Source: Owenia fusiformis
Taxonomy: Eukaryota; Annelida; Polychaeta; Sabellida; Oweniidae
Direction of reading: 5' to 3'
DNA: 64,000 nt
NCBI GenBank assembly: GCA_903813345.2
Contig: CAIIXF020000012.1
Span: forward strand, 12,074,932-12,138,931
Part shown: one piece after another, positions 4,756 to 42,769 of the stretch
How positions within the stretch are numbered: position 1 is the first letter of the stretch
Layout: every line of letters begins with the position of its first letter
Made by a program: the position numbers and the translations under genes
Notes under the pieces: model-generated
What the model was told of the DNA's origin: nothing
Database searches by the model: none
The model's input: only the letters and a program-made list of their open reading frames with translations

Positions 4756-4914
4756 ATGGGGATGTGTGGAATCGTTTTTCTTATGCTATCATGTCTCGCA
4801 TCTTGCTACGCAAGAAATGCCACTTTATTCATAACGCAGATGAAGAGCAAATGTAATGGAAATAATCACTATCTCATGAACGATAACAATAAAGTGTTTG
4901 ATACATGTAAATCT
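4756..4914 (+). CDS. Copy A exon 1: signal peptide and start of the N-terminal segment
   Basis: This exon encodes residues 1-53. It starts at the first ATG after a pyrimidine-rich acceptor and ends at a gtaagt donor in phase 0. The first 19 residues are a hydrophobic stretch (IVFLMLSCLASC) with a plausible cleavage site after SCYA, so the product is predicted to be secreted or luminal. Two cysteines follow (SKCN, DTCK). A second ATG two codons later could also serve as the start. Confidence 0.85.
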
Positions 4915-7900
4915 GTAAGTTACTTGATACCATTGTACACTTATTTCTTAGAGTTCATTCATCTTTCATTGCAGACTAATCGAAACAGGTATTGACACTG
5001 TGTGAATAGCATTAATGAAAATGACCCTCAGAAGTTTTACAACTATTATCTACAATTCGTAGTTTTTGAAGAGATATGTTTACACTTCCCTAAAGAAATG
5101 TACGTTACTATTAATATTTGTTCATTAATGATAAGGTAAGAGACGAATATCGTGCGAGGTATGGCCCGATTGGTAAATGGAAATGTAAATTGTTTGTCAA
5201 AAATGGCGACATTCTGGCTATTAAGGTAAAACGTTGTCTTCAACCATACTGTATCATAATTATATATTGGTATTTTTATCATTTTATTAGAAGGTACATT
5301 ATACGAGGATGTCAGTAGCATTATGCTTCCAAAAAGGTGTATTTAAGATCTTCATAAAATACAATGATCTAAACACAATTCCGTAATATGGATTCAAATA
5401 ATATAATTTAATATAGTACAACATACAATATAATAATAATTATTATAAAATAATATAATAAAATATGATATAATATAATAAAATATAATATAATATAGAG
5501 GTTATATATTAAAATAACACCTATTGTTATATCTTGAAGTAATACTTTTGAAAAGGTCAAGGTCAAGTCTACTAAAGAAAGACCAGATGCATACATTCAT
5601 ATATTGGTAGACAACAAAGGCAAGTTAATCTTACAACAAAAGGGTTTCTTCAAGTGGAACGATTGCATTCACGTAAGCGGTATGTAGCATCAGCATGTTG
5701 CTCTCTTCAATTCCTCTCGGGCGTTTTGATTAGAATGTTTACAAAAACACTTTCAGATAAAATGTAAACTTAAAGGATTTGAGAGCAATTTATTGTCGTT
5801 TGTACGCACCAAGACATTTATTGTTTCTTATCTAAAACTTTCATACGTTTTGCTAGAGTATTGGGAGCATTACGGTAACACTGTGGGTGGAACACGTTAC
5901 TCTCCATTAGATGAAATAAATGTTAACAATGTCAAAGACCTAACGATAGCTTGGACATTCCGATATGGACCGAGTCCTTGGGGGCATAAAGCTGATAAAG
6001 CCCTTAAAGAACAAACAGCGCCGATTATGGTAGAAGACGGGTCGATATACGGTATACAAATTATGCGAAAACAAATGTAGTACCTAATAACTGTGTAACT
6101 CACTCCCTTCCCCGTACCCATACTGATGAATTATTTGCTCATGGTACTACACCACTAGACAAACCTCCAAGGATACATCACTTACCACCTCCCAATTATT
6201 TTTGTGATATTTCTACAGCATGTACATATCGTAGTCGCATTCTAAGCCAAAATGCACGAAACGAATCGAAAATAGTAGTTCAGGCACTTATTTGAGAGAT
6301 TTATTAATTTTGTAATATTTTCCTGGTGTAGAGGTTTATGTATTCATCTACAAGTAGACAAACTACTCTACAGGAGTTTTTTGAGATACTATTACTCTTA
6401 CTTAGTTCTTCCTCATATTAGATTAATGTATTTATCAGGACATATGTCTTATTCATAGTACACCGGACAAGTTGAATGAAGCAGTCGTGTTTTTACTCTA
6501 TATTGCAATGGAACAACCATTCTTATTGAAATGTTCAAGATTTATTGTAGAGACAATCTTCAACATGGAAAATAAACATTTTATCAAAATTTTCCAATTT
6601 TATGATTTTGACAGGCTTTTTTCAAAAACGCTTCACTGTCAATAAAATACAGGTTTTTGCTTGTACAATTGAACTTATAACGTCATTTCAAATTTTCCGT
6701 CATATTCAATATTGTTACAGTGCATTAGACCAATAAGAAACTTGTTGCTCTGGTTCTCCTTTTGTGAAGCGTTCCCTAGATTAAGCCAAGATAATGGAGG
6801 TCAATCTTCTTGTCAACGGACACGAGTTCAACCGGATCGAACTTTTCAATACTGTCCAAAATGAAGTAAAACATTACGAATCTCCAACCTCAAGTATTTT
6901 CGGCATTAGATCATTCAGAGATGTTAATATAGCTGTGTCAAATTCTATCATGAAATTGTCAGGGAAACCTGACATATTCGAAGCATGGGGTAATTTACAT
7001 ACCACATGGTTGCATGCTGAGTGATGGCGTTGGAAAAAACCAGTGGCGCAAAAGGTGCGTTATCAGAAGAAACGTGATCCGGAGTGAGAAGTTTTTCATT
7101 GGCCTAATGCACTGTAATAATATCACTGAATATGACAAAAATGAATAACAATAATCAGTCATACTTAATATGGCATCAAAGACATCTTGGAAGACTTTGG
7201 GCGGCCAAAAATTCAATTTCATGTTGAGAATTGTTTCCAGAATTTCAATAATAATGGTTGTTGCAAAAACAAAACTGCATCATCCAACGTGTCCGGGGTA
7301 CTATTTTTGTAATTTAGGAAACGATCTATTGATATTTTGCACTCCTTGGCGAGCAATCGTTGCATTAGATCCTATAACTGGTGCAGAGGTTTGGAGAAAT
7401 AATGACGGGATAACAGTGCATAAGTGAGTTGATTACATAAAGGTTCACTTCATGTTAAATGTGGTTAAAATTGAAACACCCACATCATAGAATGAATCGT
7501 TAAGTTTTATTGTATGTCGATTATACTGTATACTAGAATATAGTATATCTTTGGGGAACGGTATATTCTATCACTCACGGCCCAATTTTCATTGAAATTA
7601 ACTTTCTCGTTAACAAGAATACTTGCTTTGGGGCTTATATCACAAAGATTAATGATAACTAAGTTGTGTAATCATCCTTATGCGTGTTCATGGCGCAATA
7701 TTATAATTTATCAAATAATTATGTAATTGTTTCTCTTGGATACGATTGCGTAAGCTTTTCTCAATAGATAACCGTTTTTCGGATACGGTCGTGTAAGCAC
7801 CTCCTGCTGTATACTCCCCACCAATATTCAAGCATATGGAACACCTTGTTGTCTGGTGGTCGACAACATATATAAGCATAGTTCTATATAGTAGGACTGA

Positions 7901-10900
7901 GGTGGACTTTTTGGCTTTTAGGTTCCACATTTCCTTTCTTCTGAATTAAAGCCATCTGGAACTGTCCTTTGCCATTGAGGAGATGGCCTTCTTAAGTTCC
8001 TTGGGTTGTAGTCCTAGCTTGAACAATCGGGTTCTGACTGATGTTGCTGGGAACCCTCTGCAGCCAACTTCGATTGGGAAGATGGATGCGTCCCAGCCTC
8101 TTGTCTTCGCTTCATCTGCCAGGTCTCGAAATTTCGCTGCTTTGATCTCGTGTGAAACCTCCAGTCAGTCTTCCCATGGGACTGATAGTTCGATGATGAG
8201 AATGGTCTTAGTCGAAATTGAAGTCATAATCATGTCTGGAACCAAGGTTGTTACAGCCACATCCTGAGGAAAAACTAGTTTCTGGTAGAGGTCTACCTGA
8301 AGCTGCCAGTCTGTTGCATTGGCCAAGATACTTGTCTTGGGTTGTGGTTTGGGAGTGTTTACACCTCTCATAATGGTCAAGATTGCTCAGTTACATAATG
8401 CTTTTGGTGCCATTTGATGGAGAATAAGTCAGGCTTTAGCTTTTTTACTACTACCTTTGTATTTTATAAAAACTGCTTAAGAGTCTAGTGATTTGGATTT
8501 GAAGTTGGGTATACTTTTTTGTCCCAGTTGGTGCATCTTAATTTTGTTTAGCATGCTTTGACGTGCCTTTCTTCTTCTACTGAACGTCTTACTTCCTGCA
8601 CAATCTGACTCCTTTTTGATCCTTTGGGGTCATTACCAAAGGACTGTAGTGTCCTCGACCCAAGAGGCCTTTGTACACAACCCCGACTATGTCTTTGTAT
8701 CGCAGTCTCTCCTCTGCCTCTCTTATGGATTCTTGAGGTTTCCACTTTCTGCCACAGGCCATGCCTTCACATACAGTGTTGACCATCTTGTCCTTTGGCA
8801 TCAGGAGTGTAGTTATGGCTCACATCTTTGTAGCTTTGTACTCTTCCTCGACAGAAGATATTGGAATGGAAAGCTTGGATGTCTTTCCATAAAGATTTGC
8901 TGTGCTAAAACTTTGAGGAACGACCATCCACTTCCGAAAGGGATCGGCTGCATAACCTTTCCATGGGTTCTACTGCAGTCATTGGGATGTCATAGAGCAA
9001 TTGATACAATTTTATTAAAAGTATAAAATGATTAATATAAAAGTCAGAAATTAAATCAAACAATAATAGAATGTTTATTAGTTTATAGAATGAGAGGCAT
9101 GTGACAAAAGGCCTCCAATAATGAATTCTGATCATTCCCCTTGATTATGAACTCCAATGGCTACTCTTTGTTCTCGGCTACTATGATTCACGGCTACTAT
9201 TTCAGGAAACGTGACTCCTAAATATGAGGCACTTATTCCCCCTCCCGGTTTATGAGCTGAAACTATTCCTCCTCCTCCCAATCTATCAGAGAGAACTCCT
9301 TATTCAAATATAATGAATTTTAATGTTGACTCTCAATGAATGATTCTGAACTCCGATTCAGAGTTCAACTCTGTATGCTGACTCCCAATTAATGATTCAG
9401 AACTCCTATTCAAATTGTTACTCTTTATGTTGATTCCTGATAAATGATTCACAACACCCTATATTTGATGTACGACCTTTCTGGCTCCAAAAATGATGTT
9501 CCCCTTTCTGTGACTCCAAGACCGGTATGAAACCAACAGCAGTGTGGAACACATTATGGTGATATATAATTACTGTAGTTCCTAGAACATATCAAAACAG
9601 CATAGTAATACAAGTCAACAGCTCAAATTGTACGTCAAAAATAATGTCCAAAAGTTATGCTATATTATTCACGAATTGTGCTATTTTAGAGCTAGTTAAA
9701 GTTGAATGGAGACTTTATGGTAAACAAATGAGACTATCAAATATACCATTACAACAGCGATTTCAAGTTCATGAAATAACAATCTGATAAATGCAGTAAT
9801 TTAACAGACCTCAAATGCTCGCTATGAAAATCCCATTGTGAACATCAATCACATACCCTAGCCAATCTGTTAGTATCTTGTCCCCCCTCGTGGTGTAAAA
9901 TTTGCTTCCTAACGAATGCAAAAGGGGTCGATGCACGTGTGCATTCTTCTTTTATAGTAAATTAGAAATTTGTACGGGCTGAATAATTCCTTGATTATCA
10001 TTGGTTGAAAATAACATCATAATTCCGTATATGGCGCACCGGAAACACAACATGAAGGCAACCTAGTACGCCGAAATTATATGAGAATAAACACGAATTA
10101 TATACCCTGCTTTATCTACCCAAATACTTACTCGATTCCTATGAAACCGAGCTCAAAATAACTGTCTTATACTCCGATTTTAAGTTACATCAACATGCAT
10201 TAATGTTTGATAGAAGTAACATTTAACTTACAGCCTCAAAGTGTGGATTTCTGCAGCAAATATTCATTATATTTTTCACTTCCGGTTTCGATACACAATC
10301 GGCTTTGGTGAAACAAAAATACTGGTAAATAATAATCATCCATTTTCATCACAGTATTGCTATAATATATCTTAATCTAGTGATAGTCAGAAAAAAGATC
10401 GAGTAAGACGACGATATTCATTCGTTTTGTTTTTGCTGAGCACATTTGTTTTTGATGTCCTGGCGTTTGTCATGATTAGTGTCACATCTTATGTTAAGTA
10501 TGGGGAAATGGGCAAACACATGTCGAGGTGTTGCAACATGGGTGGATCCACTTAAGCCACGTGGAGCATTGTGTAAACGTAGCATATACATCCCTACGTT
10601 AGATCTCAGACTGTTAGCAGTTGATGCTGCCAATGGAAAAAATTGCGGTGATTTTGGTGTAGAGGTATGTTTTTTAATGCAATATATTTTGTAGTTACAT
10701 CGAACAATCACTCCTTATATCATTGGTGCAAGAAACGACTGTTTTTGAAGAAATGTTACCATTATAGTGTTTGGATAGTGATACTATACTATGTTCTATA
10801 CGTTTAAATAAGAACATGGCTCAAATCATTCCTTGTCATGTCTATTTTCTAAAAATCACAAAAGTGCATCTTTATTAAAGGAAAACTTAAGAGTTTTACA

Positions 10901-13900
10901 TTATGTATAATTTTTCTGTAAGAATAGTTACCATTCTTATTATTTGAAAGAATTTCTGCCATTTTTGCACTTTGAATCATGAATAACTTCACCAATTCAT
11001 AACATATTGCGAATCTTTTAGGATATATTGTATTTGATATTGTAAGGAATATATTGGTAGGTCATTTATACAAGCTGCTTGTAATTTTATCACCTCTTAT
11101 ACAGATTCTGCCTTTAATATCCGTTTTCCTTATTTTTCGGTGCAAAATACCTAGTAAGTGATTGATTCACAATATATAGGTGGTATTTGGCATCGTTTCT
11201 AGCCAGAATAGCCTTGCATTTTGTGTTTAAGGGTTTTGCTGATCTGAGGGTAGCAACTCCAAATGTGAATTGTGTGTGGTATCTAAACCCTCCAGCAGTT
11301 GTGAGAGACGTGTTGATTTTTGGACAAAGTATGTGCACTATTAGTAGTCAACATTGGTAAATGGTTGAGAAAGCGTATAAAAATTATTTTTGAAAAACTC
11401 TTTAAAATATCCTTGAATTATAAGTTATTTGATCTATTTTGCATACCGATCAAAAGACAATGGAATTAGTTTTTAATCCTGAGACTATCCTCTTAATAAT
11501 GGTATATTAAAACCCCGGAGCAAATCCATTCCAACTTCAACCCCGTTTGTAATTAAAGTTATAACTGACGACGACTGTGGAGACAATGCACCTAAGGGGA
11601 GCATACCCGCTTTCAATGCACGGACTGGACAATTTATGTGGAATTTCATGATTGTTCCAACGGATCCCAGTGATCCAGCTATGGGCACGTATCGGGATGG
11701 CACCGACGACGTTGGGGCAGGCAATGCATGGGCTCCCATTAGTGGGGACAACGAGCTCGGTGAGATGCTTATATCGATTTTTTTCTGTATGTCCCATGAT
11801 TCCCACATACAATTAACTTTTATATAAAACTTCTTAATTAGCATAACTTTGGAAAAAAATAATTTATTGAAAAATACAATCTTTTTGCTACTGAGTTTAC
11901 TTGGTTGGGTGAACATAAAGTGTAACGTTTTTGACTATTGGTCCTAATCAATGAGGATTGGCACTCAGGATTGAAATTTGATATTTTCCAACCATAATGA
12001 AAGCATCGAAATGTCGTTATTTTCTTAAATTATAACCGACTATAAATTCAAAATAAACAGATCAAAAGATTCAAACCAATATCTTGATCATTTCTTATGA
12101 GTTTTGAAATTTTGCGTTGGGAAATAAGACCAACATTCACGATTCAATTGTTCAAATGGCAGCTGTTTGACCTCGAATTTTGTATCACGACATCGACATA
12201 AATGGGATAGAATATCGATGTTGCATTCTGGGAGTAAATCCTCCTTGGTCCTAGTTGAAATGCAAAGGAACTATCTCGTGATCATTGTTTTTTTTAATCT
12301 GTTAGGTTTTGTTTACGTGCCAACAAGTTCCCCCAATCCAGACCATTTTGGAACAAATAGAATCGGCGACAACCACTATTGCAATTCAGTGGTTGCTTTA
12401 AATGTCAGTGATGGTAAAGTCGTCTGGTTTAGGCAATTAATACACCATGATATATTTAGCTACGTAAGTTATAGTATCTCTTTTCCCCAAATATATCTAT
12501 GGTTTTTTACATCAAAACTAAAAAATGGTAGTATAACTTTTCTGAAACCTTATTACAAAGATGGGTGTGACAGGCTTCTCTTTAGTTACACATTGGAGTA
12601 CATAACTAGGAATATTATAGTCATTAGATAATTTATTTTGCTCTAATATCCAGTAAGTGCCTGGGGGTGATAGCAGCTTTCCTTGTAGGGGGCAACCCTA
12701 GTTTCTTTGATGCCCCTGCAATTAAAGTATCTAGCTGCCAATTGCTTTGAAGTTGATTAGTATATCCAGATGGTATATCCTTACAATGTTTAGATACAAT
12801 TTGATTGATGCTGGTCTGATGTGCTCAGTGAGGAAAGCAGTATAACAAAGCAAATGTTCCTGCTTAATGGGCGCCGGGTTATAGCCCATTAACGTGTAGA
12901 ACCCCAAGAACTTGGTTAGTTGAACTGAGTATGTGGCTTTATTGTTTAAAGTATATTATGCACTACTCCTAAACTCTCTTATCCTTTGGTCAAGGTTTAT
13001 ACTGCTGTATCTGAGGAAGAAGAAAAATAATTGGGTTCAAAGTCATGTGGCAAAAGAGACAGTTGACATTCATTCCAGAGTATGGAAAATTTCCAGAGTA
13101 AATATTGCCTCTAATGATAGCAAGGCATTTTGTTCATGCAGTCTGGAAATAAGATCTGGCAAAATATTTAGTTTACTCCTTACATAGTTGGCCGAAATAT
13201 CAAAATTAAATTCCACAGAGAGCCAAAACCGATGTCTCAAAGTCTCCACGATGAAGGGATTGTAGAATTAGTGTGTATGAGGATTCGCTGATTCGCTGAT
13301 TTTTCCATAAATAACCCCGTATCTGAGCTGCGAAATAGACAGATATCATTTCCTTGTAGTTGAAGTGATAATCTTTGAAACTGGGTGTGTCACAAGCATA
13401 GTTGATATGCATCCAGTCTCCTTGGAAATATCCACCAGATGCTACTGTCGATTTATCCACCTCAATGTCAACAATAGGTTTATTGTCTAGAATTATAGCC
13501 TTCCCATTGAATGTGGCTATGCAGTCCAGCCACCAATGTATATCTTTCCAAATTTCGCTTGTATTTACGATTGCTTCGTTTTAGCTGACATATGGCATCA
13601 AGTACTCGTCTGAGATGACTTGAGATGCCCAATTTAGCTTCCCTGCCGGGGATTCTAGCTGTTTGCGAGATGCACGCTTTAATGTTCAGAGTAACTAACA
13701 GAGTAGGATAACAAGGATACAAGTTTTTGTTCTGGAAGTGAGATTTGCATTTTTATAGAATTTAATTCTACCCCGAGAAATGTTATCTTTGAGATGGTAC
13801 ATTTACTTCAGACCAACTGATACCAAGTCCAAGTTTCCTTAATAATCCAAGGAGCACACTGAGTTGAGTCATACATTCATCCCTCGACTCTGATATAATA

Positions 13901-16900
13901 AAAAATCATCTAAATACACAAATATGTCCTTGCAGTTGTTTTTATATTGCATCACCCTTTTTATTGAAACTTTCGGGCACCAAACATTAATCTGGAGTCA
14001 ATAATAGTCAATAATGTTTATTGGAGCCAAATTTCAATTTAATCCCAGATTATTGGTAATCAGAACGATGGATCCGAACATATCGATATGCCTCACTCAA
14101 GTCGACCTTGTACATCCAGTATCCAGGACGTAGGCTTTGTGTTGCATCATTGATTGTTGTATATTTGTATTGATTAGCTGTTGCATTCTCATTTACAGCT
14201 GTGCCTTTATGGTTGACTACAGTCATGAATAAGTCTAATGAAATCCGAGTCTGGCTTTTTTATTGCATTCAGGGCGCTCACAATGGTCGGCTTTTGTGAT
14301 ACCCTGACGTTTCTATGTTCATTAATTTCCTTCAAGATTTGTTTTTTTACTTTATCCTTAATTGTTTTATCAGTTTCTGACTTATAATTGTCCATTCCAG
14401 CAGGCACTGGACACTCATGTTTATCAATTATCTTAAATCCATTGTATATTCCATCAAGAATTCTTTATCAATATCACATTGTAACTCCTGTTCCGATACA
14501 TTGAAATTCAATGGGGAGGAAACTGGACCGTGAAGGGGCTATTCTAGTTTTTTCAATTGTGATCTTTCAGGGGGTGCTGTGTCTGAGAAGCACTGCTGGC
14601 ATATAAGTTCAAATCTGCAATTATCATACCTACAGACCCCTTTGTTAAAGTTGCGACATATAATATTTCCACTTGGGGATAGTTGGGATTTTTCTCTTGA
14701 CACTGGCTTGATTACTACCTGGCGCTCTTTCAAGAAGGTGCTACATATATGTGGTATATCCGTACACCAAGGCTTGTCTGCACATTTACTCATCATCATA
14801 CATAATAACACTTTGCCATGTAAACCATTCGACAAGTTCAAATATTTTTATTTGATATTCCAGCTTTAAAGCCACATCCACTGTACATCATATGACATCG
14901 TAAGGGACAAGATCCTATTGCTTGCCTGGGCCCACTGCTCGATTGTCAAAGATTCCAGACGCGGTTTCTAGCTGGACCTCATAACCAGACTAGTGTCTCC
15001 CTCGGTTGCCATGACCCTATCAACACTAGACTGGGCCCGTAAAGATGGACTAATAAAGTCCATTCCTTGGGCCCATTCCTTTAAGTATTTCTCACCTTGT
15101 ACTTTGGATACCGCTTCATCTCCCGCCCTTGTATTTATTCCAAGCTGGTCTAACACAGCTGAATTGAAGGGAGCGTTCTCCCTGGGCTGTTGGGTCCGTC
15201 AAGGGCTGCTGGATCTCCGGGGGTACCCGGTACTGGTCTACCTGGTCTAAATTGGATTTCCCCTCCCGCTTCAAGGCTAAGAGCCTTTGTTCAAGCATTC
15301 GGAATTGTCCTGGTGGTCTCATTTTGAGAAATTTGACAATGTTATTTGGGACTATCATACATTTTAGAGCCAATGATGAATCAAATCCATTGTCATTTAG
15401 TAAATTCACTGTGTCTTCACATAGGTTCCATTCTCTGATAAATTTTCTCCATATTGAAATTTAGAAAGTAAGCCAAATAACTATGGCTAAAAACTGCTAA
15501 AAACTGCTAATTTGATTTATAAGCGCATTGCTTCTGCTCTGGCTTCTTGCTGGCTGCTCGTGTCTTGAGAAACAGGCATGCTAATATAAAGCAAATGACA
15601 TATCTGACCCAGATATGTCATTTGCTTTATATTAGCATGACTGGTCAAGCTGGGATAAATTGCCCCTTCACAATTTAAATTACTTTCACTTGATATTACT
15701 ATTATATAATTATCAAAGTAAGCTTCATTTCTCCAAATAAAACTATAATTTATAAACAAATGATAGTTTCACTTTAAGGGGCCTAAATGTTTTGTCTGAC
15801 TTAAAATGACCCCCCCCCCTTGTTGTTCTGGATCCGCCAGTGAACCTTACTTATAATGCCTTGTTTTCCAATAAAGGGTTTGAATGTCCAACCTGTTGTT
15901 GGAAGCATTTCACGAAATGGCAAAGAACGAAAGGTTGTTCTACAGGTGAGCATTAATATCATTTGAGGAATGTGATCTGACATAAGCATAGTGTTATTCA
16001 AAATTACATTTGAAATTATAAGAATTGATAACTACGATAACGATAAATTAAAATGATTGCTATCATATGTCAAAATAGTACTGTATATGAATTAAATTAG
16101 ATTATATGAACTGTTATACATGTACGATATATTTACATGTCATATGTATAAGCAAGTAAAATTCTAAATCCATTTTTTTAAACTTCCAATCTAAATGTTT
16201 TTTTCAACACGTACATTACTTAATTTTTCAACACGTACATAACATTTTCGAATAATGTCAGGCCATTTTGAATACCGCCAATTGACTAACGGACAAATAT
16301 CATTCACTCGACTCACTCAAGTATAAGCACGTTATATTAACTGTAACAATAATTAACGCATCATATGATTATACTATGCTTATAAAACATCAATATTTAA
16401 CTGACTATTGTTTGTATTGTGTTTATTTTCTCGTTATCAACTCTTCAATATATCACTTTGATTTAAATCCAAATCGATCTGAACGTCTGAGTTGAATTAT
16501 GATCTGCAAAGAAAGATGGTGCATTTCAATGATTTTACTTACTGCATCATTTGCTGTACATTTGTCAAATGGTCGATACTAGAAATAATTTATAATGAGG
16601 GCATAATAATTTATAATGAGGGCAAAATAAGGGCGTATCTATGTATATAGCAAACACTCATTGATTAATGGCATAATATATTATGAAAGCATAGATGGTA
16701 TAATAAATAAAGTAGTAAAATATATAAAAAAAAACCATTTAATACTTGTCAACATTTTGATTAATCTAAAAGACAAAAAAATCAATTAAGAACATGTATA
16801 TCAACGCCTTTTTTGTTTAAAGTTCATTCAGAACGATGATGGGCTTAAATTAATTTCCTGGGAACCCTAGATTAACTGAATTGTATTTTTTGTTTACCAC

Positions 16901-19900
16901 CAATGGAGGTGAGCAATACCTCTTGGATAAATCCCTTATATATACGGTCGCAATTAAGGCATGTAATAATGACAGGCAAACTTTCCTTGGAGAAGCCCTG
17001 TGTTGTTTTATGTACACTCAAACATAGTCATACATGTATACACCACAGTACGAGTTGTGAACCACTCAATCAAACACCCTGAATTACTTCACGTAAACAA
17101 GCAAATTAAGTATTGCCAGAGTCGGGTATTGAATCCTCTGAGCTATACGGATGGATATGCTATGGTACATACAAGTAATATATTCTCATATTTTGCTTTG
17201 GTTTGATTTAAACAATTAATATTCATTCGTATAACTATAATTTCAGGGCACAAAAATGGGATTCTTATATGTGTTAGACGCCACAAACGGTGAGCCTGTA
17301 TTTGATATACAGGAACAGAATGTCCCAACCTTTACTGATGTATGTTTTTTATTTCATAATTATTGTGCACCTTAATAGTCTGTGATATTTCTGATATAAT
17401 AGAGCCAGGAATATCACATTTTTGCTATTTTGTGATGTTGTGGTGTAACGATGTGATCACATGACCGAAACAATACTTAAAACATGTAATTTTGTCTTCT
17501 TAATGTCCCATGAATTCTAAAATAATAATGATAGTGACTTTCAAAGACTTAAGAGGCTTAAATGAGGGATTTCAAGAAATACTCATCAAATAGATTATCA
17601 AAATAAAAAGTTAATTAACATCATTAATTCTTAATTTTCTGTTAATACACTTTCCCAGGTTCGAATCCCGGCCATGGCAAATCCTTTTCTTTTTTTCTTT
17701 ATTTAGTAGCCTGAGCAAAAATATATTTTCTTTATCTCATTTTTATTTAATACATAGTGTCAATTTTATTACTTTTTGGGGTTTTATAATATAGGTAAAA
17801 TGTCTGTATGTGGCTTTAGCTAAAAGTGGTTTAAACTTTACCCCGGACCTTTTTCAAGAATCGAACTATGTTCTTCACCGCCTATACTAGATATTAAGCA
17901 CATATACTACACTTTGATCTTAGGTAGCGAAAATGCCAAAAAGCTACATTTACATTTACCATGGGCATGCATTTACATAACATTTCTCGATTTACAAAAT
18001 GTTCTTAATAAACATACTCTAGCTGCCAGGTGAAATCCCGAGTCCAACACAACCTTTCCCTGTTGATGATTTTCTGAAGTTAGCAAAGATCTCCGTTGAC
18101 TTAAGGCCTGGAAAGGATCTATGGGGAAGAACCAATGTCCAGGAACAAGTTTGCGCAGACTTCATAAACAGTTCAGGACTTGATCCGTTTGGAGAGGTAT
18201 GCATTCTCTTCATTGTTTAAATTTATGTTTAATACAAGGGCGAACGTAATACCCGGAACGTACGTAAATTGGCGTTCGGTTTTTTACCGCATCCGATTTG
18301 AATTAGCAATTAAACATATACCATTGTCTCATGAAGATCATACAAAGCCCTGGACGTCGAACAATCATCTGGTAATATAAAAGACACCTGGACACACATT
18401 AATGAAATATTAAACAGAGGAAAGAAATTGCAGATATCACCTGATAAATTAATACACAATAATAAAACATTTACTAATCTTAAAGAAATAGCTAATGGTT
18501 TTAATGATTATTTTGTCAATGTTGGAAATAATTTGGCAAAACACATACATAATTCTCATAAAATATTTCAACTTTTTTTGAAGAAAATGTCTAATTCTTT
18601 AAGCCAAAGTTTATATCTACGACATGTAACTTTTGACGAAATAAAATCAATTTTAGATAATTTGAAAGATAAATCTGATGGTAATGATGATATAAAGCCT
18701 ATAGTTATCAAAAAAGTAGTGCCATCCTTGCAAAACCGCTTGTATTCCTAACTCAACTATCTTTCAAAACTGGCATCTTAATTTCCAGATGATTTGAAAC
18801 TTGCCAAGGTAATTTCATTATATAAAAAAGGTACAAAACAATTCTTCAGCAACTATAGACCTATTTCTTTAGTATCTGTTTTTCAAAAATAATTGGAAAA
18901 GTAATGGCTCGTAGACTTACAGATTTTTTTGAAAACTTCAAACTTTTGTGTCGTAATCAATTTGGCTGTAGAAAAAATAGATCCACTTACTTGGCTATAC
19001 TTTCTTTTTTAGAAAATTTACGCAAAGCATTAAATGATAAACAGTTCTCTATTGGCATATTCTTGGACCTCAGTAAAGCATTTGATACTGTTAATCATGA
19101 CATTTTATTATTTACTCAATTTTTATGGTATTAGAGGAAAAGCTAATGATTGGTTAAGAAGTTATCTAAATAATCAAAAACAATTTACTGTACATGGAGA
19201 TAATAATATTAAATCTCAGGAACAATCAATCACATGTGGAGTTCCACAAGGCACTACCTTAGGTCCTATTTTGTTTATAATATATATCAATGACATTATA
19301 TGTTCAAGTTCTTTGGTAAAATATGTAGGTTTTGCAGATGATACAAACATCTTCTATTCTGATAAAAAACATAAATAATCTGATTACTAAATTAAATTGT
19401 GAACTCTATAAAATTGATGATCGGTTTTGTGGTAATAAGCTATCTCTTAACGTACAGAAGACGAAATTTATGATATATACAACCTGCAAACATAAAGTTT
19501 CACAAAATATTGAGAACAAAAAAAGAAATAATTTAGTAGAGAGAGTACAATCAATCAACTCCTTAGGGAAAATTATTGATGAGGATTTAAACTAAAAGGA
19601 ACATATAAAAAAATATCGCTTAAAGTATCAAAAATTATCGGGATACTATTTAAAAATAGACATAAATTAAATACAAAAACACTTCTATCAATTTTTTATT
19701 CACTTATATATTCTCAAATTTAATAATGTATATGTGCTTGGGGAAATGCAGGCAAAACTGCAACGAATTCAATATTTTAACTACAAAAACGTTTTTAAGA
19801 ATTATTACTTACAGTGGAAATAGAGAACATACTAGGCCATTCTTTAAACAATTTAAAATTCTAAAATTTACGGACATATATGACCTTAATATTCTACAAC

Positions 19901-22900
19901 TAACCTACAAATGTATTAACAGACCCGATTATTTCCAAGTAACATTTTTATAGACTTCTTTGAAAAAAAACAATAGTGTTCATCAATAGACAGAATGAAC
20001 AAGTTCATGTTACAAAGTTCAAAACCAATTATTTAAGATACAGTTTTAAAGTACAAGGTGAAATTATCTGGAACAAAATGCCTAATACTTGTACTATTAA
20101 ACTTACCAATAATATTTATAAATTAAAAAGATGACACATTTTCAAAATACTGATTTCGATGTTCAGCAAACGTAAGGTGGTTCCATCCTCTTTATTGTAC
20201 ATTGTTTTTTACCAATGTTTTTAATTCATGAGACAAACTATGGTTCACCCAGTGTCATGTTGTGTTAAACTTTCAAGCACTTGAACATTTTAGATTAATG
20301 ATTTTAAATGTGGTCAATTAAATACCTATGTAGGTGTCACGACCATGATTATGTAAAAATGTTATTATGTTTTAATGTAATATATAAAAATATATATATA
20401 AATAAAATAAAAAATATTATGGGATGATTTGACCAATTCTGTTATTCTAAAATGATATAACACGATTTATTTTCAACTTAATTTCTGCTTAGTTTGTAAA
20501 AATAACCCAGTTCATGTGAAATTTAATCATGCTTCTGCTTCAATACAAAGTTATTAAAATGATAAAGCCACAAATTTAGTGATATTATCGCATAAAACAG
20601 TTTCTAAAACGTTCCAAAAACGTTTCCTTCCAGATATTCACACCGGCACTCGTAAGTAAGCCTATATGGTGGATACCAGGACTGACAGGTGGGATGAACA
20701 TCGGAGGCAGCGTGGCCTTGGACCCCACTAGAAGTATTGCTGTTGCAGCGACGCAAAATGATCTCTGGAGTAATTACCTTATTCACGTACTTATCTGTAA
20801 CCACTGTGATAACCCATACTTACACTAAACAAGGTCTAAAAACGTTCTATACTATCTACTAACTGTCCCAAAACAGTAAAACAGTCTCTGGTGGGTTTTC
20901 AATACCCCACTATATGATACTCTATTTCTGTTTTAGTAAAACAATTGATTCCAAGAAACACATCATCCCCATTGCCCCAATGGTGTAAACTTTTGTTTAA
21001 AACCCCTAACGCCGATGTGCCACTTCAGTGCTATGGTTTTACACTATTCAAAGAAAAGTGCGATAAACCACCATGGGCCATGTTACACGCTGTGGACTTG
21101 CAAAATGGGCGTAAACTGTGGAGCATCCCCCATGGCACCAATCCTAATATCCCAGAATCAACAGAAGAAGAGGGATCAAGGTAATTAGTAGTGGGATATT
21201 GTTCAAGTTACTTCCATAGGCTTATTTGTATGATAGATCTGAAACGTATGTCCTGTAATATAGGTCAACAAGATTCTAGTGTACATATAAATGTAATAAT
21301 ATTAATAAAAGCCGTATATTTACTTTGAAAAATCAGATGAATTCATTTTTGTTCATGGGGAGATCATAATGGAGGGCGCACTAGATCCGTTCTTGCCCTG
21401 GTTGTCATTTCATTTCGTTTAGTATACATAGTGTACTAAGCTCCGGGCATCAAATTGGTCTTGCCTATTTATATTGTGCGGAACTTACAAACGGTCACAT
21501 TTAAAGTTGTCCATTTACCAATTAAAATGTATTCTTATTTCCAATTAAGGATTTGGGGTTTACCAATATAACAAGCAAGATTGTCTGTATCAAATATGGG
21601 CTCCAGGGCCATCCTAGAACATAGCTAAAATCAATCACGCAATGAGCGACGTGTAATCACTCATCTACAAGTAACTTTCACGCTTACCTGTAAAAAGTAG
21701 ACTAATCTGACGTCATTTTCCTGCGCGCGAAAAAAAGTACACGTTCATGCTTTGTTGAATACGCGTCTGTAAATTGCACGAATATGATAATCTCATGTAA
21801 AAACCTGTAAACTTCACGCTTGCCCACAGGAAATAACCAAATCTGACGTCATTTATCTGCACGCGCAATTAAGTTCATGTTCAAGTTTTGTTAAATACGT
21901 GTAGCTTAACCTCTCTATTGATTGCATATAGATGTGAAACGTATGACCTGTAACAAGGTGCGATGTTGGATACTGAATAAACTTAATGTCTCAGGAGTAT
22001 CTCAGAATTTATCTCAACCTAAATTGGTTTTTACTTCTTTTTTATTAGACTCCAGATTGAAAATCTGGAGTCTATTGCTTTTGCCTGTATTCTTATTCTT
22101 ATTAGCACGTTTTCTCAGTAACTAGAGGACTTGGAATAAATCTAATTACATAGTCAGTTAGGCTATTTGACCTAGTTTCTGGGAAATTAGATCAAATTTT
22201 TATCTAGGTCAAAGGTCAAAATTAAGGTCAATTTTTTTCAATTTCACAAATTTTCAATTTTCTTTTTAATCTATCAATATTTCCTGCGATGAATTAAGTT
22301 ATAGCTCCCTCTAAGTATTTAAAACATTTCGCTCACTCTATGTCTCCATTAAAATTTTACCAATTTTGAGAAATTTGACTCCAAAAAAAGGTGAAATTTG
22401 AATTGTTCCAAAACTATTTAAAATAGTCTCAATTTAACATGAAATCTTCTCAGGATTCCCAATCTGAAAACGAAATTGTAATCCGACTTCCGGTTCAGGA
22501 GTTAACACATTTTGAAATTTCAAAAAAATGATATGATGGTACCCTGATGGCATGTCTACCTGACCGTTTATTTTCTCATTTCTCATTAATATCAGAGATC
22601 GAAATCTAACTGTAATAGGAAATCTTCTCAGGATTCCGAATCTGTAAACAAAATTGAAATCAGACATCCGGTTCAGGAGCTATGGCCTTTTGAAATCTCA
22701 AAAAATCCCTACCGCTGCCACCAATGTAGCATCCTGATGTTAAGTTAATGGTAATCAATAGCCAATCATCAAAAATTCAGTAAAATTTTGAGTGCTAAGG
22801 GTCAAGGTCAAAATCTAGGTCAATTTTGTTAATTTTGAGATTACCTTACTATTGATCAAATTTTGCTTTTAAAGTTGTGACGAACATAAATATTTTCTTT

Positions 22901-24801
22901 AAGTTTCACTTTCTCATCTATATCAAATGATGTCAAAATCATTTTATAAATAAAAAAAATGGAATCTGGAGTCTTGAATTGAACTTGTTCAATTTCTCCA
23001 ATCTAGTTTATTTATATATTTATACAAAGAATACATAAACAAATGCACATGTGCTCGTGGCTGGGCATCAGCATTATCAGCATTATCAGCCACGTTATAT
23101 GATGAAACTCAATTAACTGTATTCAATCAGACATTAAGAAAAAGGGTTGTATTTGTGGAGGGTAACAGTGGTGGGGGTGACCTAGACATTTTTACATCGT
23201 TCAAAAAAGATGGCACTACATTTGAGGATATTTAAGTTTACATCTTATGTCTTCATTTTTGAAATGGAGAGTTCTGATGAATTTATAACATCGTCATTGA
23301 ATAGATCTATTTTAAGCCTGGATTTGAATATACTAAGGGTAGGTGAATTTCTTATTTCATGTGAAAGCTTATTCCATTCAGTAAGTGTTTTTGATATGCA
23401 AGATCTATTAAAAAAGGAGGATTTATTTGGAATTGTGTAGCTCAGTTGATTTCTTAGACCATAAGCATGATTTATTTTGAGAGGCTCAAAAATGTTAAGA
23501 ACATAAGAGGGTAGCATATTATTATGTGCCCTATACATGAAAGTACTTCTGTGATATTGACGCCTCTTTGTTAATGTTGGCCAATTTAAATTATTCAACA
23601 CTTTAATTGTTAAGGTCCCATGAAGAGTGCCTGAACAAATACAAGTGGTTTTATAGTAAAGTCGATCTAATAACTGTAATTTTGGTAATTTTGTTGTGTT
23701 TGCAACAAAAATTGGCAACATAAAAGATTTAAAGATTGTTTCGAGATGTTTTCCTTTTATTTTCTGACAGAGCGCTTTTAGTGGATTTAAAAGTTTGTCT
23801 ATTCTTGCGCCAATTTTGCGCCAAGTCTGTTTTTACTGTAACGTATGAGTAGAATAATTATTTAATACGAAAAATCAAGTAAATTTAAACTAGACTCAAA
23901 GGCCCCATATTGAGTTTAGACCACTTTAGCTTATGTTGTACAAATTTGATATGTGAAACTTTTGTTTTTAATTTCTAAGTTTTTGAAAGACTTTTTGTTC
24001 ATAAAATAGTGAATTTATTTAAAACTATATGTTAGAGCTCACGCATATACATGTATATCCTTTATTAAGCGATAATATACACCAGTACATAGCATTCATC
24101 CTCACGTTTGAAAGTGGTTCAGAGAAATATGCATTTTAAAATTTTAGTTCTCAGAGAAACCGATGGTACAATAATATCTAAAACATAATACATTCTTCTT
24201 TTCTACCAAACTAAACAATCACAATTATTACGGATTATTTATAATACTTCAACTTTTATGAGAAAAGGAAAAGGCCAAATTTGTTTTTCAAAAAAATCTC
24301 AAGTAACTTTTAAAGTGATGGAAAAAATTGTAAATGATTAATAAAAACATATCATCAAACTCTACATGGCGCCTTTAAGATAGGTCATTGGGCCTTTTTA
24401 TATTTGGATTACAATGTACAGTATCATAGTTGTAACAATATTGCCTATTGTGCAAGCCTACATTATTCTGTAACTAAAGTTTTGTAGTTTTTATTTTATG
24501 ATACTTATTTTGGGCTAACTGTTTTTCAAGGTGGTATACTGGCGGCATACTGGTTACTAGAGGAGGTTTAGTAATAGCTGGAAATACAGAGGATAGATAT
24601 CTTCGGGCGTTTAACATTGAAACTGGGGAACAGCTCTACAGATCTCCAGATCCAATGATTGCTGCGGCAGCGGGGAATCCAATATCCTACAGAACTAGTG
24701 GGAGGCAATATGTTGTTCTTACTGTAGGTGGTAACTCGTTTTTGGGACGGTCCGCCAACCACTCAAGAAGTGACCACGTGTATGCCTTCGCGTTGCCATG
24801 A
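4756..24801 (+). CDS. Copy A: PQQ-dependent glucose/quinate/shikimate dehydrogenase-like protein, 15 coding exons
   Basis: Joined exons: 4756-4914, 5136-5225, 5556-5672, 5859-6051, 7318-7423, 10499-10664, 11232-11328, 11559-11759, 12306-12463, 15877-15945, 17247-17339, 18023-18196, 20634-20796, 20937-21180, 24531-24801. They total 2301 nt with no internal stop, giving 766 residues; all introns are GT-AG. Residues 1-19 look like a signal peptide ending SCYA. Residues about 20-122 match nothing I recognise. Residues 123-766 follow bacterial membrane glucose dehydrogenase (Gcd) order: RYSPL, NVKDLTIAWTFR, CTPWRAIVALD, CRGVATW, WAPISGDNELGFVYVP, GDNHYCNSVVALN, HHD, TKMGFLYVLD, SPTQPF, KDLWGRT, IFTPA, LIPR and GRQYVVL. 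The five N-terminal membrane helices of bacterial Gcd are absent. Lys455 matches the active-site Lys, but the expected catalytic Asp is Ser428. The exon before the start codon is not identified; a splice acceptor (tttttccgcag) lies 10 bases upstream of the ATG, so a 5' UTR exon is likely. Confidence 0.93.
5136..5225 (+). CDS. Copy A exon 2: N-terminal segment
   Basis: This exon encodes residues 54-83, including RYGPIGKWKCK and NGDILAIK. It is 90 nt and phase 0 at both ends. The acceptor is ataag and the donor gtaaaa. No known domain is recognised. Copy B lacks one A in this exon. Confidence 0.85.
5400..5512. repeat. AT microsatellite (ATAAT/TATAA type) in intron 2 of copy A
   Basis: An imperfect run of ataatata-type units lies just before exon 3. 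Copy B has a similar tract interrupted by insertions. Confidence 0.8.
5556..5672 (+). CDS. Copy A exon 3: N-terminal segment before the propeller
   Basis: This exon encodes residues 84-122, including ERPDAYIHILVDNKG and GFFKWNDCIH. It is phase 0 at both ends with donor gtaagc. The acceptor could also lie 6 bases downstream, because gtcaag is repeated; that would remove two residues. The sequence is almost unchanged in copy B. Confidence 0.85.
5859..6051 (+). CDS. Copy A exon 4: start of the quinoprotein propeller
   Basis: This exon encodes residues 123-186 plus one base. It opens with YWEHYGNTVGGTRYSPLDEI and continues NVNNVKDLTIAWTFRYGP, the usual N-terminal signature of PQQ dehydrogenases. 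The frame requires the acceptor tgctagag, not the nearer tag. The donor is gtatac, phase 1. Confidence 0.93.
6718..7114. mobile_element. TA-flanked inverted-repeat element with a small ORF, intron 4 of copy A
   Basis: The ends are CAGTGCATTAGACCAATAAG and, inverted, CAGTGCATTAGGCCAATGAA, flanked by TA on both sides. That fits a Tc1/mariner-pogo type insertion. It contains a 76-residue frame at 6794-7024 starting MEVNLLVNGHEF, with no recognised homology. The shorter copy B intron lacks it. Confidence 0.7.
7318..7423 (+). CDS. Copy A exon 5: propeller, CTPW motif
   Basis: This exon encodes the segment NDLLIFCTPWRAIVALDPIT followed by GAEVW, a canonical propeller strand with its W-motif. The acceptor is aatttag and the donor gtgagt, leaving phase 2. 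Bacterial Gcd has His where this protein has Trp in CTPW. That Trp resembles quinoprotein alcohol dehydrogenases (TPW). Confidence 0.93.
7930..9010 (-). pseudogene. Degenerate non-LTR retroelement C-terminal region (R2/NeSL-like tail)
   Basis: Minus-strand fragments in several frames resemble a repeat ORF common in invertebrate and fish genomes. In order: PMTAVE at about 8990; GRKWKPQESIREAEERLRYK and DIVGVV at about 8700; SVEEERH at about 8570; ATDWQLQVDLYQKLVFP at about 8300; LIIELSVPWED at about 8180; then IEVGCRGFPA near 8060. I associate it with the end of R2-type reverse transcriptase polyproteins. Frameshifts and stops make it non-functional. Confidence 0.65.
9290..9480. repeat. Minisatellite of about 60-bp units, intron 5 of copy A
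   Basis: Three to four imperfect units contain gaactcc-attcaaa and gactcccaattaatgattc motifs. The 120 bases before it hold similar shorter motifs. Confidence 0.6.
10499..10664 (+). CDS. Copy A exon 6: propeller, CRGVATW motif
   Basis: This exon runs to residue 277 and contains WANTCRGVATW, RSIYIPTLDLRLLAVDAANG and CGDFGVE. CRGV is characteristic of the glucose dehydrogenase branch; alcohol dehydrogenases usually have NRGV preceded by a Cys-Cys pair. Acceptor gttaag and donor gtatgt keep the frame. Confidence 0.93.
11232..11328 (+). CDS. Copy A exon 7: propeller
   Basis: This exon encodes GFADLRVATPNVNCVWYLNP followed by PAVVRDVLIFGQ, which aligns with the TSPP-and-gate region of Gcd. It starts in phase 0 and ends in phase 1 with donor gtatgt. 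It lies in the part of copy B that is lost at the assembly gap. Confidence 0.9.
11559..11759 (+). CDS. Copy A exon 8: propeller, WAPISGDNELG motif
   Basis: This exon encodes ITDDDCGDNAPKGSIPAFNA, then RTGQFMWNFMIVP and GAGNAWAPISGDNELG. This matches the family pattern of a propeller strand plus the Trp-Ala-Pro loop. The donor is gtgaga, phase 1. The 143-residue open frame on the other strand here is a shadow. Confidence 0.95.
11950..12247. mobile_element. 300-bp MITE, copy 1 of a family (intron 8 of copy A)
   Basis: The ends are diverged forms of CAAGGAGGATTGG and its complement. A 9-bp flanking duplication, GTCCTAATC/GTCCTAGTT, differs at two positions. It is closely similar over its length to 41232-41536. 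The right edge is only about 60 bp before exon 9. Confidence 0.75.
12306..12463 (+). CDS. Copy A exon 9: propeller, GDN and HHD motifs
   Basis: This exon encodes FVYVPTSSPNPDHFGTNRIG, DNHYCNSVVALN, and the end HHDIFSY at residues 423-429. The acceptor is gttag and the donor gtaagt, phase 0. In bacterial relatives the last motif reads HHDxWDxD, and its W-D aspartate is the catalytic base. Here that position is Ser428. Confidence 0.95.
12640..15460 (-). pseudogene. Degenerate DIRS/Ngaro-type tyrosine-recombinase retrotransposon, intron 9 of copy A
   Basis: Read on the minus strand, gag-like sequence (15410-14540) ends in a CCCH finger (ICRNFNKGVCRYDNCRFELI). Reverse transcriptase follows: KPTIVSALNAIKKPDSDFIR then LIHDCSQP at about 14230, YKVDLSEAYRYVRIHRSDYQ at about 14060, VYLDD-like remains at about 13900. 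RNase H (VDKSTVASGGYFQGDW) is at about 13440. The N-terminus of a tyrosine recombinase (FLGFYTLMGYNPAP, SIKLYLNIVRIYHLD) is at about 12900-12750. Stops and frameshifts are frequent, and the 3' part appears truncated. Confidence 0.8.
15577..15639. repeat. Perfect 30-bp inverted repeat with 3-base loop
   Basis: CATGCTAATATAAAGCAAAT and ten more bases are repeated exactly in inverse orientation around ACC. It sits between the DIRS remnant and exon 10. Perfect pairing suggests recent origin or an assembly or cloning artefact. Confidence 0.9.
15877..15945 (+). CDS. Copy A exon 10: short propeller exon
   Basis: This exon encodes residues 430-452, GLNVQPVVGSISRNGKERKV followed by VLQ, aligned with the LPAQPTL segment of Gcd. 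It is 69 nt and phase 0 at both ends, with acceptor aataaag and donor gtgagc. Confidence 0.88.
15946..17246 (+). other. Intron 10 of copy A: AT-rich, no gene seen
   Basis: It contains an imperfect doublet at 16583-16630 (aataatttataatgagggc repeated). At about 16880-17120 it holds sequence resembling a dispersed repeat that recurs near 34070-34320. Confidence 0.6.
17247..17339 (+). CDS. Copy A exon 11: propeller, active-site lysine
   Basis: This exon encodes GTKMGFLYVLDATNGEPVFD and then IQEQNVPTFTD. The Lys at residue 455 aligns with Lys493 of E. coli Gcd, 27 residues after the catalytic-Asp position in both proteins. Acceptor is tttcag, donor gtatgt, phase 0. Confidence 0.94.
17645..17690 (+). 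repeat. tRNA-like 3' fragment (B-box), probable SINE remnant
   Basis: GGTTCGAATCCCGG is a canonical pol III B-box, followed by a T-rich tract. No intact A-box or cloverleaf is seen upstream, so it is not a tRNA gene. Confidence 0.45.
18023..18196 (+). CDS. Copy A exon 12: propeller, PGE-SPTQPF motif
   Basis: This exon encodes LPGEIPSPTQPFPVDDFLKL and KDLWGRTNVQEQVCADF. The SPTQPF and KDLWG segments are diagnostic of the Gcd/quinate dehydrogenase branch. Phase 0 at both ends, donor gtatgc. Confidence 0.95.
18330..20430 (+). pseudogene. 5'-truncated LINE reverse transcriptase (CR1/Jockey-like clade), intron 12 of copy A
   Basis: Fragments in order: ANGFNDYFVNVGNNLAKHI (about 18490), QFGCRKNRSTYLAILSFLEN (about 18960), FLDLSKAFDTVNHD (about 19060), GVPQGTTLGPILFIIYINDI (about 19240), FADDTNIFYS (19330), then an LSLNVQKTKFMIY region and a C-terminal tail to about 20150. 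The FADD catalytic motif is intact. Several frameshifts and stops break the frame, and no endonuclease domain is present. The element ends in an A/T-rich tail near 20430. Confidence 0.88.
20634..20796 (+). CDS. Copy A exon 13: propeller
   Basis: This exon encodes IFTPALVSKPIWWIPGLTGG, MNIGGSVALDPTRSIAVAAT and the start of the LIPR loop. The nearest donor (after ATTCAC) breaks the frame. The gtaacc donor ten bases further restores phase 1 and yields the expected KQLIPR across the junction. Confidence 0.9.
20937..21180 (+). CDS. Copy A exon 14: propeller, LIPR and PPWAMLHAVD motifs
   Basis: This exon encodes KQLIPRNTSSPLPQW, then YGFTLFKEKCDKPPWAMLHA and VDLQNGRKLWSIPHGT. It aligns with the Gcd segment that reads QPAWGYISALDL. 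Acceptor is ctgttttag, donor gtaatt, phase 2. Confidence 0.94.
21665..21905. repeat. Tandem doublet of about 125-145 bp in intron 14 of copy A
   Basis: Two imperfect units share aatctgacgtcattt, a gcgcg tract, gttcatg and ttgttgaatacg-type motifs. No coding signal. Confidence 0.6.
22046..22980. repeat. Repeat block bounded by agactccagatt / aatctggagtct
   Basis: It begins with a small hairpin (agactccagatt, gaaa, atctggagtct) and ends near 22970 with ggaatctggagtct. Inside, 22439-22530 and 22619-22700 are two copies of a 180-bp-spaced unit (gaaatcttctcaggattcc, ccggttcaggag). Copy B lacks the block, so it is inserted. Confidence 0.55.
23240..23730 (-). pseudogene. LINE ORF2 C-terminal fragment
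   Basis: A 158-residue open frame on the minus strand contains LPKLQLLDRL, LNWPTLTKRRQYHRSTFMYR, YVLNIFEPL and WNKLSHEIRNSPTLSIFKSR. This is the typical tail downstream of reverse transcriptase in CR1/Jockey-like LINEs. It has no reverse transcriptase core here and opposite orientation to the LINE at 18330-20430. Confidence 0.8.
24531..24801 (+). CDS. Copy A exon 15: C-terminal propeller closure and stop
   Basis: This exon encodes WYTGGILVTRGGLVIAGNTE, DRYLRAFNIETGEQLY, GRQYVVLTVGGNSF and the end HVYAFALP before TGA. It closely follows the C-terminus of bacterial glucose dehydrogenases (LRAF, GRQYVV, AGG, VAFALP). A polyadenylation signal follows 82 bases later. Confidence 0.96.
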
Positions 24802-42610: not shown

Positions 42611-42769
42611 ATGGGAATGTGTATAATCGTCTTTCTTATGCTATCATGTTTCGCATCTTGCTACGCAGGAAATGCCACATTATTCATAAGACAGATGAAG
42701 AGAAAATGTAATGGAAATAATCACTATCTTATGGACGATAACAATGAAATGTTGGATAAATGTAAATCT
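42611..42769 (+). CDS. Copy B exon 1: signal peptide
   Basis: This exon encodes 53 residues beginning MGMCIIVFLMLSCFASCYA, a signal peptide like that of copy A. The acceptor ctttttgcag lies 10 bases before the ATG and the donor is gtaagt. Both N-terminal cysteines (KCNG, DKCK) are kept. Confidence 0.85.

Follow-up and report, generated by a model that had tools for sequence, protein, structure and literature searches.

The nuclear genome of Owenia fusiformis carries a gene family whose sequence specifies a PQQ-dehydrogenase propeller of bacterial type; the propeller belongs to the Gcd lineage, and the membrane domain present in Gcd itself is missing. The explanation that best accounts for the observations as a whole, to which a probability of roughly 0.6 is assigned, is that of a transferred gene that gained introns, was joined to a host module and was duplicated, giving copies E and F, which would be catalytic, and a copy A, which would be non-catalytic. 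Copy A lies in the window, by which is meant the whole 64,000-nucleotide stretch of DNA analysed here; positions given below without a contig prefix are those of the window.

Spliced alignment, which started from Escherichia coli Gcd as the reference and went on to a profile built from the paralogs, yielded 15 exons for gene A on the + strand between 4756 and 24801, which join in frame to a product of 760 residues. The start codon may be the ATG at either 4756 or 4762, and the stop codon ends at 24801. Exon 1 (4756/4762-4914), which has a GTAAGT donor and is kept in B, C, D and E, encodes a signal-peptide-like stretch and the start of an N-terminal module. The module continues in exon 2 (5136-5225, phase 0 to 0), kept in C, D and E, and ends in exon 3 (5556-5679, phase 0 to 1), kept in C, D and E and also in carboxylesterase loci. 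The PQQ propeller begins in exon 4 (5857-6051), which corresponds to positions 1-61 of PF01011. Exons 5 (7318-7423), 7 (11232-11328), 12 (18023-18196) and 13 (20634-20769) were placed by spliced alignment, while PF01011 also matched exons 6 (10499-10664; profile positions 95-143), 8 (11559-11759), 14 (20937-21180) and 15 (24531-24801, stop codon included; profile positions 537-595). The conserved equivalent of D354 is encoded in exon 8 and that of K493 in exon 11 (17247-17339). Exon 9 (12306-12463; PF01011 E 1.5e-17) has the codon AGC (Ser) at 12458-12460, the site of Gcd Asp466, and the first codon of exon 10 (15877-15945) is GGT (Gly) at 15877-15879, the site of Gcd Asp468.

All 14 introns of gene A are GT-AG. 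Their phases (0,0,1,1,2,0,1,1,0,0,0,0,1,2) are identical at 14 of 14 positions in paralogs D and E. A micro-exon of 9 bases that the first alignment had inserted between exons 14 and 15 was discarded once a phase-2 junction had been found, and a 49-base exon 2, which broke the frame, was replaced on the basis of sequence conservation by one of 90 bases. The fifteen in-frame exons and 14 spliceosomal-type introns proposed in the first-pass annotation were borne out by the spliced alignment, the splice sites and phases, and a match of the assembled protein to PF01011 that covers positions 1-595 of 595 (536.1 bits, E 1.7e-160, gathering cut-off 26.7); a family match by chance is excluded. An eight-bladed propeller is predicted for gene A from this full-length match. 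The description of the product as a full quinoprotein holds for the predicted fold, which is complete, and fails for the predicted active site, which is not, the position of the catalytic Asp being occupied by Ser and that of Asp468 by Gly.

The bacterial type of the family, also part of the original proposal, was upheld by PF01011 and by TIGR03074, the glucose/quinate/shikimate family, which gene A matches with 410.1 bits (E 1.4e-122) and gene F with 445.8 bits, the curated cut-off of 832.65 not being reached. The match of gene A begins at profile position 155, and the membrane domain corresponds to about positions 1-150. A hydropathy count gave one hydrophobic segment before the propeller in the N-terminal part of A, against three in E. 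coli Gcd. Since its score lies far below the TIGR03074 cut-off and the membrane domain is absent, gene A is not a Gcd, and the membrane enzyme identity first given to it must be abandoned; judged by its sequence, it is a secreted-looking relative of Gcd.

When the whole genome was searched with PF01011, all 49 candidates were scored and 39 matches of exon size resulted, every one of them in genes A-F or in a fragment, H, at loci spread over four chromosomes. Spliced alignment placed gene C at C12:12149288-12161761, gene D at C12:16398321-16379318 on the - strand, gene E at C8:33525286-33541511 and gene F at C6:31956615-31972669. Genes E and F have no stop within their modelled exons and a stop codon shortly past the last conserved residues. 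Gene D is interrupted by a single in-frame TGA, and the last exon of gene C, compared with that of A, has lost one base. The model of gene F, the deepest branch among the animal copies, contains 11 propeller introns (introns 4-14 of A) at the same phases together with two extra introns; its 15 modelled introns are GT-AG, and two micro-exons in the model are not trusted. A search for the first exon of F returned one weak candidate, which was not used. Fragment H (C3:22583275) consists of exons 11 and 12 only, beside a 3000-base N run; it is 78-89% like parts of gene A and could be a displaced piece of gene B.

Gene B is a tandem paralog of A in the window (42617-45738, + strand), of which exons 1 (42617-42769) and 3-6 (approximately 44209-44349, 44513-44707, 45103-45208 and 45573-45738) are visible. 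The region of its exon 2, from 42993, appears frame-disturbed in the model. A run of 500 N at 46001-46500 covers the expected place of exons 7-13 and most of exon 14, and the last exon, matched by PF01011, lies at 61955-62222 (+ strand) without a stop codon. The reading of B as a pseudogene lacking its middle exons was withdrawn, since the missing part coincides with the N run. Within the gene B region, an open ORF of 627 residues at window positions 54426-56309 (- strand) encodes a DDE_1 transposase, presumably pogo-like, with a weak PHD-finger match at its end.

The gene A locus lies on a contig of 36.7 Mb in an assembly of 498,259,871 bases, contigs C1-C12 of which are chromosome-sized (32-62 Mb each, approximately 477 Mb together, which leaves no room for a further contig of such size). 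Genome searches detected dispersed repeats within the introns of gene A. With 40 of 291 first-look candidates scored, a stretch of 1001 bases in intron 5 (8300-9300) has at least 41 other matches genome-wide; with 150 of 2030 scored, an ORF of a high-copy dispersed element in intron 14 (23245-23832, - strand) has at least 149 others, spread over many contigs. The latter ORF had no match in Pfam, and the element may be a retroelement; of the animal-type retroelements with which the introns were originally said to be full, the dispersed repeats were thus recovered and the retroelement identity was not. Bacterial contamination is excluded, as had been argued from the outset, because the locus combines a large host contig, introns and dispersed repeats. 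Contamination or an assembly artefact would have nothing in its favour except the N run in copy B, and would have to be reconciled not only with the size of the contig and the repeats within introns but also with 14 GT-AG introns at phases common to paralogs, one of which is on another chromosome; the probability of such an origin is negligible.

The first-pass annotation, whose observation is confirmed and whose interpretation is supported in part, had overlooked both the membership of the gene in a family and the nature of its N-terminus, a module that is also found before carboxylesterase exons. Where Gcd has its membrane domain, exons 1-3 of gene A supply a signal-peptide-like start followed by some 100 residues more. 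Against Pfam the module gave two matches only, both below the cut-offs (E 0.1 and 0.21). A genome search with the module found it in A, B, C, D and E, in a second copy upstream of D, on C267, on C6 at about 8.92 Mb and on C12 from 4396104 onward; near gene F this search gave no match, approximately 10 kb upstream having also been modelled. At C12:4396104 the module exons measure 153, 90 and 121 bases, compared with 153, 90 and 124 in A when counted from the second ATG. Their phases are the same as those of gene A, and the next exon, likewise entered at phase 1, is that of a carboxylesterase (PF00135, 6.1e-12 for the first esterase exon, 2e-65 and 3e-19 for later pieces). That module and esterase form one gene is predicted from exon order and phase, and within a single genome the module is thus associated with no fewer than two unrelated enzymes.

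Because the same module precedes carboxylesterase exons at the same phase-1 intron, exon shuffling through that intron suggests itself as the simplest reading, in a direction that we infer. Recombination in the phase-1 intron would have put the captured gene behind a host secretory module, and duplication of the gene would have come after this joining. A three-exon module shared with carboxylesterases would offer a plausible route by which a bacterial-type gene could obtain a secretion signal.

Several further arrangements of the module were seen. At C12:4396104-4411000 two tandem sets of module and first esterase exon are followed by a third module. At C6:8919168-8919672 module exons 2 and 3 are followed by TTEGTPPITE-like repeat units and possibly by another stretch resembling the module; inspection by eye of the sequence downstream of this locus revealed no enzyme domain. 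A second set of three module exons, little different from those of D, lies just upstream of D at C12:16400800-16399002. Module exons with an in-frame stop, then a propeller-like start, are found at C267:16899-18436, and this may be either a D-related copy in decay or an alternative haplotype.

The equivalents of R201, R266, D354, K493 and G689 (E. coli Gcd numbering) are kept in A, C, D, E and F, and that of D730 is kept wherever it could be aligned, which excludes C. At the sites of Asp466 and Asp468, all 28 of the bacterial loci identified through the family model have D, as do genes C, D, E and F, whereas A has Ser and Gly, respectively. D466, which we take to be the catalytic base of E. 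coli Gcd, aligns with the WD-motif Asp of the quinohemoprotein alcohol dehydrogenases 1yiq, 1kb0 and 1kv9. A check of the catalytic residues in E and F found D466, D468 and K493 all present. The statement on Asp466 and Asp468 rests on the 28 family-model loci, for which ORFs were picked by BLAST to E. coli Gcd without recourse to any motif, instead of on the 77 bacterial relatives used elsewhere, whose agreement at positions 462-468 is biased by selection, the patterns with which they were fetched having included HHDIWDYD. Twelve of the 28 are the same proteins as in the pattern set and 16 are not, and all come from 14 genomes that are themselves those of motif-chosen loci. An earlier pick of ORFs, which employed a loose motif without residue 466 and aligned 25 of the 28 loci (13 of them outside the pattern set), agrees with this result.

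Gene A keeps 70 of 72 near-invariant positions and differs solely at 466 and 468, a count that used the pattern-selected alignment, in which conservation near 462-468 is inflated. On the same measure C differs at 1 of 65 positions, D at 2 of 72, E at 1 of 71 and F at 0 of 70. Ratios of non-synonymous to synonymous change (omega) were 0.15 for the A branch (bootstrap 0.09-0.28), 0.29 for the D branch and 0.39 for the C branch, the last two with wider ranges reaching above 1, and pairwise values among A, C, D and E were 0.16-0.23; all are rough figures, obtained from counts at high synonymous divergence.

With the catalytic Asp absent, oxidation of sugars or quinate by copy A is unlikely on its sequence, and so is the action on sugars or quinate/shikimate-type compounds once envisaged for it. 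Gene A might still act as a dehydrogenase through another base, or the Ser/Gly pair might be a sequence error or a rare allele, and retention of R201, R266, D354, K493, G689 and D730, together with purifying selection on A, would be compatible with this. We nevertheless consider it rather unlikely. The Asp466 site is that of the WD-motif Asp in the alcohol dehydrogenases named above, and another PQQ dehydrogenase, DepA, is described with a catalytic Asp, D311, in a docking study, as far as the available part of that paper goes (PMC10975547). A also differs from E. coli Gcd at N355, T424, N607 and H775, positions that vary in bacteria too. Relative to C, D and E, the pair requires a change at two neighbouring bases of exon 9 and at one base of exon 10; lying 3.4 kb apart, in two exons, the changes cannot be explained by a single error.

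Decay offers a different account, in which gene A would be a young pseudogene like C and D. D has its in-frame TGA, C its last-exon deletion and A has lost two catalytic residues, and a very recent loss would be compatible with the near-invariant positions, most of which C (64 of 65) and D (70 of 72) likewise retain. Against it, A is open over 760 codons with all splice sites present, and both its 70 of 72 near-invariant positions and its omega of 0.15 speak for maintenance; a young pseudogene is accordingly judged improbable, and more so than an A that is still active or misread. Gene A is probably a maintained pseudoenzyme: the predicted propeller and several cofactor contacts would have been kept while the catalytic base Asp466 and its neighbour Asp468 were lost, and the product is most likely a non-catalytic paralog under maintenance, for example a secreted binder of PQQ, a sugar or another protein. 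As such, copy A would be a clear-cut example of a propeller enzyme in which the catalytic acids are gone and the remainder has been preserved by selection.

The bacterial sets against which a search had been proposed were covered through prokaryotic collections, in which the best 80 of at least 595 matches come from several phyla and are full length, with identities of up to 39%. One or no hydrophobic segment precedes the propeller in 73 of these 80 relatives and two or more in 7, compared with three in E. coli Gcd; the count was made on ORFs read from stop to stop, some of them cut by contig ends. After three of the 80 loci (L052, L082 and L084) had been dropped, alignment gave a tree of 83 rows, the phylogeny likewise proposed at the outset, built here with bacterial rows. 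The five animal copies form one clade (100/100), whose stem is 1.48 changes per column long. With E. coli Gcd as the root, this clade falls inside the non-membrane bacterial group (100/100), its sister not being well supported; E. coli Gcd groups outside together with the seven rows that have two or more segments. Long branches prompted a warning from the program. An approximately unbiased (AU) test did not reject a topology in which the animal copies are joined to the eight membrane-type rows (p 0.215). No relative turned up when viral contigs were scanned, and by eye no common pathway was apparent in the ORFs flanking 12 of the bacterial relatives.

Bacterial descent of the family is likely on these data, and ancient transfer followed by gain of introns is the most likely history. 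This agrees with the history first proposed as to transfer, introns and a bacterial source; the donor and the age are not fixed by the tree (AU p 0.215). Vertical descent of a family old in eukaryotes, with many losses, would dispense with transfer into the animal line. Multi-propeller PQQ-like proteins are reported from trypanosomatids, plants and fungi in one study, which in the part available argues for vertical descent with loss in animals (PMC13384848), and a tree that cannot fix the nearest bacterial group leaves room for it. The nearest relatives found in the prokaryotic collections, however, are full-length bacterial Gcd-type proteins, and the 19 PDB hits of gene F are without exception alcohol, ethanol or methanol dehydrogenases, with no pyranose dehydrogenase among them. 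On these prokaryotic and PDB searches vertical descent appears unlikely, to much the same degree as an active or misread gene A. Under the history of transfer, a bacterial gene for a soluble, exported Gcd-like enzyme would have entered the host line long ago, and introns would have been gained by the captured gene.

A search of the genome for PqqE, a protein of PQQ synthesis, gave no match; exons were searched singly, and the model gave a signal in 14 of 14 control genomes, over the cut-off in none. The negative is weak because the genome was searched exon by exon, and it is to that weak extent that the absence of PqqE fits an outside source of PQQ, such as the diet or symbionts originally suggested. 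Asn, which occupies the N607 position in 11 of the 16 bacterial loci not drawn from the motif set, is replaced by Ala in A, C, D and E and by Ser in F. The equivalents of N355, T424 and H775 are variable in the animal copies as they are in bacteria. Of the positions considered for binding of PQQ and a divalent ion, those of R266 and D354 are kept. Because N607 is replaced and these three positions (N355, T424 and H775) vary, PQQ binding even by E and F is uncertain.

Having the Asp pair and the Lys, E and F would probably be extracellular PQQ-dependent dehydrogenases of sugars or polyols, and their PQQ may be taken from food, sediment or microbes. It is tentatively suggested, at somewhat less than even odds, that the animal line turned a captured bacterial gene into a secreted PQQ enzyme system in which catalytic E and F work on external PQQ beside the pseudoenzyme A as a binder of PQQ or sugar, the export signal having been supplied by a host module shared with carboxylesterases. 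If this is true, PQQ would be a genuine cofactor of an animal enzyme, obtained from outside. To our knowledge, whether any animal enzyme truly uses PQQ is a long-standing open question. The uninterrupted E and F, with Asp pair and Lys intact, would make that question testable in one organism.

Compared with membrane Gcd (E. coli b0124; TIGR03074), the animal propeller aligns over its whole length. The animal copies differ in having no membrane domain and in their 15 exons, and A-E in having a signal-peptide-like start and an added module; A lacks D466 and D468, N607 is replaced in A, C, D, E and F, and the TIGR03074 score of A is about half the curated cut-off. Non-membrane bacterial Gcd-like proteins (L044 from Acidobacteria, L013 from Hyphomonadaceae, L014 and L018) likewise have a propeller without a membrane domain, and in 6 of 6 scanned the propeller parts also score below the TIGR03074 cut-off. 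They differ from the animal copies in being at most 39% identical and intronless, and none of them was seen to carry the animal N-terminal module. Quinohemoprotein alcohol and methanol dehydrogenases (1yiq, 1kb0, 1kv9 and XoxF; TIGR03075) belong to the same propeller superfamily and share the WD motif at the catalytic Asp, whereas their matches are weak and partial and the animal copies have no cytochrome domain. The empty quinoproteins of Acidobacteria (TIGR04528) are, to go by their name, presumably propellers without PQQ function and would be a precedent for a PQQ-less relative; gene A matches this family with 175.9 bits as against 410.1 for TIGR03074.

By title and abstract opening, with subscription papers and genome annotations outside the scope of the search, no paper on a Gcd-type gene in an animal was found; such genes may already be named in automatic database annotations. 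The 'quinoproteins' of the pearl oyster are placed beside tyrosinase and dopaquinone in the accessible part of their description (PMC5597905). From what is available of the respective papers, the fungal pyranose dehydrogenase CcPDH is six-bladed and the trypanosome protein Tc323 has six nine-bladed propellers (PMC13384848), and centipede genes resemble PQQ-sugar dehydrogenase (PMC9151784). With CcPDH, Tc323 and the centipede genes, the family described here has in common that all are PQQ-type enzymes, or candidates for such, in eukaryotes.
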